From: a virus
IMG/VR virus record: IMGVR_UViG_3300031688_000179
Coordinates: 1-20,426 of that record
DNA: 20,426 bases
Reading direction: 5' to 3' (one strand)
The notes under the pieces were generated by a model, which saw only the letters and a program-made list of their open reading frames with translations, had not been told where the DNA came from and searched no databases. This document shows, one piece after another, positions 527-1,694 of the stretch (the stretch's first letter is position 1; every line of letters starts with the position of its first letter). A program made the translations under genes and the position numbers.

Positions 527-545
527 ATTACATGATATTTATAAT

Positions 546-606
546 TGAACGTTAGTAGTAATGTTAGCTACTCAATTGGACGCGGGTTCGACTCCCGCCA
601 TCTCCA
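546..606 (+). ncRNA. tmRNA acceptor piece (encoded first)
   Basis: This is the 3' part of the mature tmRNA. It contains the 3' strands of P2 (546-550, 558-564, 571-576), the GGAC linker at 578-581, the T-stem and loop (582-598) and the 3' acceptor strand ending at A606. The T-loop TTCGACT has the invariant TTC and A expected in tRNA-like T-loops. The bases after A606 are CAAC, so CCA would have to be added by the host CCA-adding enzyme. The mature 5' end of this piece could lie a few bases further upstream. Confidence 0.85.
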
Positions 607-612
607 CAACAG

Positions 613-640
613 ACTATATTCATTTAGATATAATATAGGG
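613..640 (+). repeat. Direct repeat copy A in the tmRNA intervening segment
   Basis: Begins 7 nt after the tmRNA discriminator base. It matches copy B exactly 40 nt downstream, differing at only four or five of 28 positions. It contains TATAAT (629-634) and a small TATAT/ATATA inverted repeat (615-619 with 628-632). It could be a promoter, a processing signal or a relic of the duplication that created the permutation. Confidence 0.85.
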
Positions 641-652
641 GTTTTTGTTTAA

Positions 653-680
653 ACTATATTCATTAGGATATAATACGGGG
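653..680 (+). repeat. Direct repeat copy B, ending in the tmRNA 5' acceptor strand
   Basis: Second copy of the repeat. It shares the 12-nt run ACTATATTCATT and the 8-nt run ATATAATA with copy A. It contains TATAAT (669-674) and ends inside the GGGG that starts the tmRNA coding piece. The TATAAT lies only 2 nt before the mature 5' end, so a promoter here would start transcription inside the coding piece. That argues against it being the promoter that sets the mature 5' end. Confidence 0.85.
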
Positions 681-816
681 ATGACTTGGATATTGACATT
701 GAGATAAGGATATTATGAAGTTCACACGCATAACAGGCGAACATGTTGAAATGGCAATGGCGGCTTAATAAAGTCCCCAGAACCAACGGTTGAAGAAGCA
801 CACCGTATAAGCTTCG
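677..816 (+). ncRNA. tmRNA coding piece (tag and pseudoknot)
   Basis: This is the 5' part of the mature tmRNA. It starts with the 5' acceptor strand and D-arm-like segment and then the 5' strands of P2. The tag frame follows, with a small hairpin (762-765 with 772-775) holding the stop codons in its loop, as in P5 of standard tmRNA. Downstream, ACGGT (786-790) pairs with ACCGT (802-806), and GAAGC (795-799), inside that loop, pairs with GCTTC (811-815). That is an H-type pseudoknot of two 5-bp stems. Only 59 nt separate the 5' end from the resume codon, compared with 89 in E. coli, so a first pseudoknot is reduced or absent. Confidence 0.85.
736..771 (+). other. tmRNA tag reading frame, GEHVEMAMAA then two stops
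   Basis: The frame ending in TAA TAA (766-771) reads back to GGC at 736-738 and encodes GEHVEMAMAA. The resume codon was chosen because the five bases before it are TAACA, which places U at -5 and A at -4. These match the conserved U85 and A86 before the E. coli resume codon. The tag has 10 residues, as in E. coli, and ends in the hydrophobic AMAA pattern expected of a ClpXP degradation tag. A first residue of Gly followed by Glu resembles Bacteroidota tags more than the A-starting tags of many other bacteria. The exact resume codon is inferred. Confidence 0.8.
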
Positions 817-842: not shown

Positions 843-1694
843 ATGGACGAAGAACTAAACATAGAAGGAATGGAATTAGCATTTGAAAGCACATATAAAC
901 TTGTGACTGGCAAGATCAGTATAGAGAAAGTAGCCAAAGGAGGAGTAGGTGAGACATTTATATTGTATGACCCGTTTGATGTAAGTATACCGGAATTAAA
1001 AGATATACTGAATGACATCATAGACTATTATATAGAATCAGAAGAATATGAAAAATGTCAAGAGATAAAAAACATATTAGAATCTGGTACTGAAAATATT
1101 GTTAAGCTAATAGAATCAATAACTCTTCCAGATACTGAAGCGTCAGAAGCAATACAAAATATCAATGATACAAAGTCAGAAGGATTAAATTCTATAGATA
1201 ACTTAATAAGTTTATTTAAACAATACAGAAGTAATTACGATCCAGATAAATTAGAAAAAGATCTTAAGGCTAAAAAATATATCCCTGAATATCTTTCTGA
1301 TATAGAACTCTGGTCTTTAATGACTGATCAAGATAGAACTATATTTGAAGATGACTATAATCTTTTTTCAAAATGGACTGAGAAGTTAGGTGACGATAAT
1401 AAAAAGTATTATTCAGAAAGGCTTATAAATAATCTACCGTTAATACCTGTAATACAAGAAGAGCTTTATAACGAAGGTGAATACACATACGATTATAATT
1501 CTCTAGTTGTTACTATGATTGGGGAGTTTATATGTATCAGCAATTACAGCAGGGATAAGATAGATAAGCTACAGAGAGTGCTTGAAGGTCTAGGTATAGT
1601 TGATTCTGAAATAAGAACAAAGATAAGCGAAGGTAAAGACAGTGAGACTGTATATACACTTGTATACTCTTCAAAACAACCACCAACAAAATAA
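843..1694 (+). CDS. Acidic hypothetical protein with a UVR-like helical hairpin
   Basis: A 283-residue acidic protein that I cannot assign. Residues about 47-79 (ending YEKCQEIKNIL) have the spacing of a short helical hairpin resembling UVR-type motifs and similar YEKC segments seen in small T4-like phage proteins. That resemblance is by eye only. A YDPFD motif precedes it at residues 42-46. The rest is mostly helical with no membrane segment. The start at 843 is the first ATG after a very strong purine-rich SD (GGAGGAAGGAGG, 816-827). The spacer from AGGAGG is 15 nt, longer than usual, and the SD directly abuts the tmRNA pseudoknot. Its stop overlaps the next start by one base (TAATG). Confidence 0.8.
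   Translation: MDEELNIEGMELAFESTYKLVTGKISIEKVAKGGVGETFILYDPFDVSIPELKDILNDIIDYYIESEEYEKCQEIKNILESGTENIVKLIESITLPDTEASEAIQNINDTKSEGLNSIDNLISLFKQYRSNYDPDKLEKDLKAKKYIPEYLSDIELWSLMTDQDRTIFEDDYNLFSKWTEKLGDDNKKYYSERLINNLPLIPVIQEELYNEGEYTYDYNSLVVTMIGEFICISNYSRDKIDKLQRVLEGLGIVDSEIRTKISEGKDSETVYTLVYSSKQPPTK

Follow-up and report, generated by a model that had tools for sequence, protein, structure and literature searches.

A circularly permuted tmRNA gene with Bacteroidota-like sequence and tag in a T4-like phage

A circularly permuted tmRNA gene is located at positions 546-816 of the window, which here means the whole 20,426-nt stretch of viral DNA that was analysed (IMG/VR record IMGVR_UViG_3300031688_000179). 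On sequence comparison, the locus is read as a phage-borne circularly permuted ssrA that would yield a functional two-piece tmRNA using host SmpB, and that was probably derived from the one-piece tmRNA of Bacteroidota (probability about 0.85). The virus is a myovirus with T4-like baseplate genes, in agreement with the original prediction of a permuted tmRNA in a T4-like phage. Marine T4-like phages were already known to carry permuted tmRNA. The new element is the subtype, which is not of the alphaproteobacterial (alpha), betaproteobacterial (beta) or cyanobacterial (cyano) type, has Bacteroidota-like sequence and tag, and is without PK1.

The gene was identified with covariance models. RF04321 (tmRNA_permuted), a merger of the RF01849 (alpha), RF01850 (beta) and RF01851 (cyano) models, matched the window at 57.8 bits (E 4e-9) with a gathering cut-off of 47 bits. 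The same cut-off was exceeded by the other phage contigs of this tmRNA family that were searched. ARAGORN also called a permuted tmRNA in the window, with the tag GEHVEMAMAA. The gene is flanked by a small gene that ends at 526 and by another that starts at 843. Its parts are listed here in window coordinates.

About 545-606, + strand: acceptor piece, placed by the window sequence, the RF04321 alignment and covariation; CCA not encoded
546-550, 558-563 and 571-576, + strand: 3' strands of P2c, P2b and P2a, within the acceptor piece
582-598, + strand: T-arm, with T stem 582-586/594-598
599-605, + strand: acceptor 3' strand CATCTCC, followed by discriminator A606
607-676, + strand: intervening segment (70 nt), presumably lost from the mature RNA
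677 to about 816, + strand: coding piece, placed by the RF04321 alignment and covariation
677-683, + strand: acceptor 5' strand GGGGATG, followed by the D-loop region (684-697)
698-703, 711-716 and 720-724, + strand: coding-piece strands of P2a, P2b and P2c
736-771, + strand: tag frame, with resume codon GGC (736-738), peptide GEHVEMAMAA (736-765) and stops TAA TAA (766-771), placed by ARAGORN and 53 relatives
763-774, + strand: P5 hairpin (763-766 with 771-774), covering the last Ala codon and the stop codons
786-815, + strand: H-type pseudoknot 3' of the tag, with S1 786-790/802-806 and S2 795-799/811-815
843-1694, + strand: downstream neighbour gene, used as the query for relatives

The elements named in the original prediction are all present. 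The T-arm and the acceptor 3' strand (582-598, 599-605) precede the matching 5' strand (677-683). All 7 bp of the acceptor helix are formed, and G679-U603 is the predicted G3:U70 pair, the feature recognised by alanyl-tRNA synthetase. P2 is split between the two pieces as P2a (571-576/698-703), and two more helices, P2b (558-563/711-716) and P2c (546-550/720-724), pair across them. The tag frame (736-765, stops 766-771) and the pseudoknot (786-815) follow in the coding piece.

The structure was tested on an alignment of 35 genes, with shuffles and slid 3' strands as controls. Standard pairs filled 91.9% of cells, compared with 80.8% in shuffles and at most 46.8% in slid strands. The number of pairs changed on both sides was 22, compared with 13.7 shuffled and at most 7 slid, and the covariation score was 0.331, compared with 0.127 shuffled and at most 0.069 slid. 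All four inter-piece helices (acceptor stem, P2a, P2b and P2c) covary. Within the acceptor stem, 100% of cells are paired, columns 63/145 vary among CG, UA and GC, and the G-U pair is invariant. Similarly, the three P2 helices are paired in 88-95% of cells with 12 pairs changed on both sides, and the P5 hairpin is paired in 100% of cells with compensatory changes. The folding energy of the window is ordinary for a single sequence (z -0.42), so the evidence for the tmRNA is comparative.

Relatives were collected by gene neighbourhood and by tag. A search with the downstream protein found 14 full-length relatives besides the window, 13 of which carry the tmRNA. ARAGORN placed a permuted tmRNA just upstream of the gene in 12 of these, and in L071 a permuted tmRNA with a TAG stop was recognised by eye. 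No tmRNA was found at the corresponding place upstream of the relative in L073. This indicates that at least one lineage can do without the gene. The tag pattern matched 46 IMG/VR stretches, and a pattern built on the coding piece's 5' end gave 22 further loci. In all, 53 distinct genes were compared, in viral contigs and in several gene neighbourhoods. The tag pattern had no match in the bacterial and archaeal genomes of 84,980 species, searched in contigs of at least 3 kb, a scope from which small contigs could escape. When the tmRNA was sought in phage records, the matches spanned no more than the T-arm region; plasmid records gave no match.

The 53 tags follow the pattern G[EAT][QHTS]VE[ML]AMAA with few variants, and the end AMAA is invariant (53/53). 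The alanine codons of the tag vary synonymously (GCA/GCG, GCG/GCT and GCT/GCC/GCG), and all three stop codons are used after it. An invariant AMAA with synonymous codon change is as expected from selection on a translated C-terminal degradation signal. Acceptor, P2 and tag frame are thus all kept in the relatives, with covariation (35 aligned genes, 53 tags). One family member, L339 (4480-4990, minus strand), has a 37-residue tag, GTQIKPVKAGIFATLAAIRLLGTKEIATKEPVLAMAA, instead of 10 residues, and a terminator hairpin stands directly after its pseudoknot.

Two readings other than a working tmRNA can be weighed with these data. The first is a decayed or chance tmRNA-like sequence without function. 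The ordinary folding energy and the loss of the gene in L073 agree with it, but the strong covariation, the conserved tag and the 53 distinct genes in several gene neighbourhoods leave it an extremely small likelihood. Covariation together with tag conservation was taken to rule it out, and the earlier judgement that chance is unlikely is borne out by the RF04321 score, the ARAGORN call and the covariation in the 35 relatives. In the second, the RNA would act as a decoy or would inhibit trans-translation in the host, binding SmpB or the ribosome without productive tagging, like the RNA of mycobacteriophage DS6A, which consists of a tRNA-like domain only. A tRNA-like domain by itself is a strong inhibitor of tmRNA (PMC4131195, citing Mao 2009). 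SmpB was not found in 13 contigs of the tmRNA family and three related records, many of which are fragments, and a phage RNA without its own SmpB would compete for that of the host. However, a decoy needs neither the tag frame, nor the stop-codon hairpin, nor AMAA, all of which are kept with synonymous change in 53 genes. Conservation of the tag weakens the decoy reading, which is considered improbable.

The immediate surroundings of the gene hold further conserved sequence. GATATTTATA is found at window 534-543, just before the acceptor piece, and at the same place in L067-L080, L160-L173 and others; it is kept also in L073, which is without the tmRNA. It contains TATTTATA, which is the T4 late promoter TATAAATA in reverse complement, and it is possibly a regulatory element. 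A sigma-70 scan upstream of the tmRNA gave no clear excess for a promoter at GATATTTATA. The N-terminal 80 residues of the downstream gene (window 843-1694; L081-L145) are common to many other phage contigs, and some contigs have a relative of this gene on both sides of the tmRNA.

An H-type pseudoknot is found 3' of the tag in 36/36 genes. Its S2 helix occurs as GAAGC/GCTTC, GGGC/GCCC, GAGGT/ACCTC, AGGAT/ATCCT and GGGT/ACCC. For L161 the top-scoring computed alternative differs, and GGGAT/ATCCC is present at the usual place. In the phage genes the resume codon lies 27-34 nt from P2a, and P2b and P2c take up part of this stretch; in 27 of 28 Bacteroidia one-piece tmRNAs the distance is 68-71 nt. 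When PK1 was sought between P2a and the resume codon of the phage genes, pseudoknot scores were no better than those of shuffles. The short, partly occupied space and the shuffle-level scores indicate that PK1 is absent. This absence is unusual, since both PK1 and PK2 are typical of the two-piece coding pieces known so far (PMC3985003).

The intervening segment falls into three classes: 18-23 nt (42 genes), 68-70 nt (9 genes including the window) and 90-91 nt (L072 and L339). The 68-70 nt segments contain two hairpin-forming repeats; the window has a 28-nt direct repeat with copies at 613-640 and 653-680, mostly within the segment, each of which can form a hairpin. The 90-91 nt segments enclose a complete tRNA-Ala(UGC). 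The position of this tRNA-Ala, after the discriminator and before G1, agrees with the segment being excised by tRNA-processing enzymes, which would be the predicted route of processing. The long segment mainly accompanies the CATTGAG/CTCAA P2a allele and the GEHVEMAMAA tag, in differing gene neighbourhoods. This association suggests recombination of tmRNA alleles between phages. A published survey notes one 'nominally archaeal' permuted tmRNA that holds a tRNA-Ala in its intervening sequence and for which misbinning was suspected (PMC11915505). By its description, this tmRNA, from the MAG GCA-2688965 sp002688965, has an intact tRNA-Ala in the intervening sequence, as in L072 and L339. It is plausible that it comes from a misbinned phage contig of the window tmRNA family.

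Two-piece tmRNA has been described in three bacterial lineages and in their phages or organelles. The alpha, beta and cyano types share with the window gene the order of the pieces, the acceptor stem with G3:U70, the T-arm, the inter-piece P2, the tag and the pseudoknot after the tag; in the window family P2c stands in the place of PK1. The Infernal check proposed with the original prediction held for the general model RF04321 and failed for the three lineage models. With RF01849 (alpha, cut-off 50 bits) the window scored 25.9 bits, and the window and two relatives together 25.9-36.3. With RF01850 (beta, cut-off 84) the corresponding values were 32.6 and 32.6-46.8 bits. With RF01851 (cyano, cut-off 70) they were 21.4 and 21.4-49.5 bits; no control passed this model, which makes the result less informative. 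The matches of all three models to these sequences were confined to the tRNA-like core. The alpha control, Pelagibacter phage HTVC008M, passed RF01849 at 83.8 bits, and two other IMG/VR phage contigs passed RF01850 at 116.9 (L002) and 104.9 bits. Membership in the alpha and beta lineages was ruled out by the sub-cut-off scores with these positive controls, and membership in the cyano lineage by the sub-cut-off score without a passing control. L014 and L034 are viral contigs with another permuted tmRNA type, and L014 was called with a 31-residue tag.

The earlier impression that no permuted tmRNA was well described in a phage with this gene set needs correction: a permuted tmRNA in a phage is not new in itself. 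Marine T4-like cases have been described, with 53 two-piece tmRNAs counted among phage genomes and Methylophilales phage Melnitz treated as an example (PMC9004378), and 79 phage tmRNA sequences are listed in another study (PMC11915505). The sequenced T4-like isolate HTVC008M (L374, NC_020484 145161-145370) has an alpha-type permuted tmRNA with the tag ANFNEYALAA. HTVC008M and Melnitz resemble the window virus in that each is a marine T4-like myovirus with a permuted ssrA and a tag frame. However, the HTVC008M tmRNA is of alpha type with an encoded CCA, whereas the window gene fails RF01849, and the Melnitz tmRNA was reported as alphaproteobacterial by its authors (PMC9004378), unlike the window gene. 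The window family differs from both in its Bacteroidota-type resume site and tag, in the absence of PK1 and in usually having no encoded CCA. CCA is unencoded in most family members and encoded in most other permuted phage genes inspected. No account of this subtype, or of any permuted tmRNA in a Bacteroidota phage, was found in the literature searched, most subscription journals and supplements lying outside that scope.

A close counterpart is the one-piece tmRNA of Bacteroidia (RF00023). The phage genes share with it the UUUGACAG region, the P2a helix sequence and the UAACUGGCGAA resume site; tags in both start with GE and end with A[LM]AA, and CCA is often unencoded in both. Of 28 Bacteroidia one-piece tmRNAs sampled without selection, 24 carry UUGAC in their D-loop region and nearly all resume at GGC, with tags like GENNYALAA or GESNYAMAA (G[E,N,D]..A[LM]AA). 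In the phage genes the corresponding sequences are UUGACA, UAAC[UA]GGCGAA and GE...AMAA, and UAAC-N-GGC is conserved as the resume site. They differ from the Bacteroidia genes in being permuted, in being without PK1 and in a 10-residue tag in which VEM replaces [NS][YF]. The tRNA-like part comprises only 61 columns, too few for a decisive tree, and the other permuted genes in the comparison set were collected by T-arm sequence, which biases that block. Group identities and nearest-match counts were therefore used, over anchored windows that span the D-loop, the GGAC junction and the two strands of P2a. For 36/36 phage genes Bacteroidia were in the group with the best score, with 5 ties with other one-piece tmRNAs; a permuted tmRNA of another type never was. 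L159 and the Flavobacteriaceae sequence L248 are identical at 29/33 anchored positions. In these short alignments the resume site, tag ends and P2 sequence are of the Bacteroidota type. L253 (PBYL01000424.1), from a MAG titled Thalassovita (Alphaproteobacteria) and from the same sample as L248, behaves as Bacteroidia in class sampling and is probably misnamed or mixed.

The permuted form appears to be confined to the phages. None of 395 Bacteroidia genomes had a permuted tmRNA over cut-off, which rules out a permuted gene resident in these hosts, and seven weak permuted-model matches lay on or beside ordinary one-piece tmRNAs. The ordinary one-piece tmRNA was over cut-off in 55 of 60 sampled Bacteroidia genomes. 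The virus is probably a phage of Bacteroidota. Its nearest isolate by DNA, Flavobacterium phage immuto, has a named Bacteroidota host and is collinear with the window contig; no permuted tmRNA was found over the whole immuto genome. The single best match of the window contig's baseplate protein is Microcystis phage Mel-JY01, not a Bacteroidota phage.

From these comparisons we infer that a one-piece Bacteroidota tmRNA was permuted within phages, apart from the alpha, beta and cyano lineages. A fuller account, favoured with some reserve, is a fourth independent tmRNA permutation that arose and lives only in phages. The Bacteroidota one-piece gene would have been rearranged into two pieces in a lineage of marine phages, where PK1 was lost; this form, bearing a degradation tag peculiar to viruses, would have passed from phage to phage, and the hosts would have retained the one-piece gene. 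The competing account needs no separate permutation: marine T4-like phages would have exchanged a permuted tmRNA belonging to one of the known lineages (the alpha type found in pelagiphages), whose tag and resume codon were afterwards adjusted to a Bacteroidota host. The alpha type is indeed present in marine T4-like phages, HTVC008M among them, and HTVC008M shares UUUGAC, so this D-loop motif is not unique to Bacteroidota. The order of the pieces is the same and the gene is broken at a point very similar to that in other permuted tmRNAs, so the family may descend from a permuted gene of another phage whose tag was converted to the Bacteroidota type. The family alleles also differ in combinations that suggest recombination. 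On the other hand, the window family fails all three lineage models, and its fast-changing P2a helix and resume context match Bacteroidia and not other permuted genes. Its prevailing lack of an encoded CCA and its lack of PK1 also set it apart from the other permuted phage genes inspected and from the known two-piece forms, respectively (PMC3985003). Exchange of an alpha-type gene is therefore regarded as unlikely, though less so than the decoy role.

The proposed working of the two-piece tmRNA is as follows. RNase P would cleave the precursor at G677, and a tRNA 3'-end enzyme would cleave it after A606. CCA would be added to the acceptor piece, which host AlaRS would charge with alanine. With host SmpB and EF-Tu, the tmRNA would enter ribosomes stalled on broken mRNA and add the tag A-GEHVEMAMAA to the stalled peptide, and host ClpXP-type proteases would remove the product. 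The phage would probably use it to sustain ribosome rescue in the infected cell, with a tag specific to the phage.

If the gene represents a fourth, virus-only subtype that corresponds to the one-piece tmRNA of the probable host phylum, a gene permutation event would be placed inside viruses, and its steps could be tested by setting hosts with the one-piece gene against phages with the two-piece gene. The family amounts to a set of natural mutants: there is no space for PK1, the intervening segment is of three types (one enclosing an entire tRNA-Ala), and one tag is 37 residues long. A phage contig in the wrong bin is a testable explanation for at least one odd 'archaeal' permuted tmRNA. The family also shows that phages of marine bacteria carry a ribosome rescue RNA of their own.
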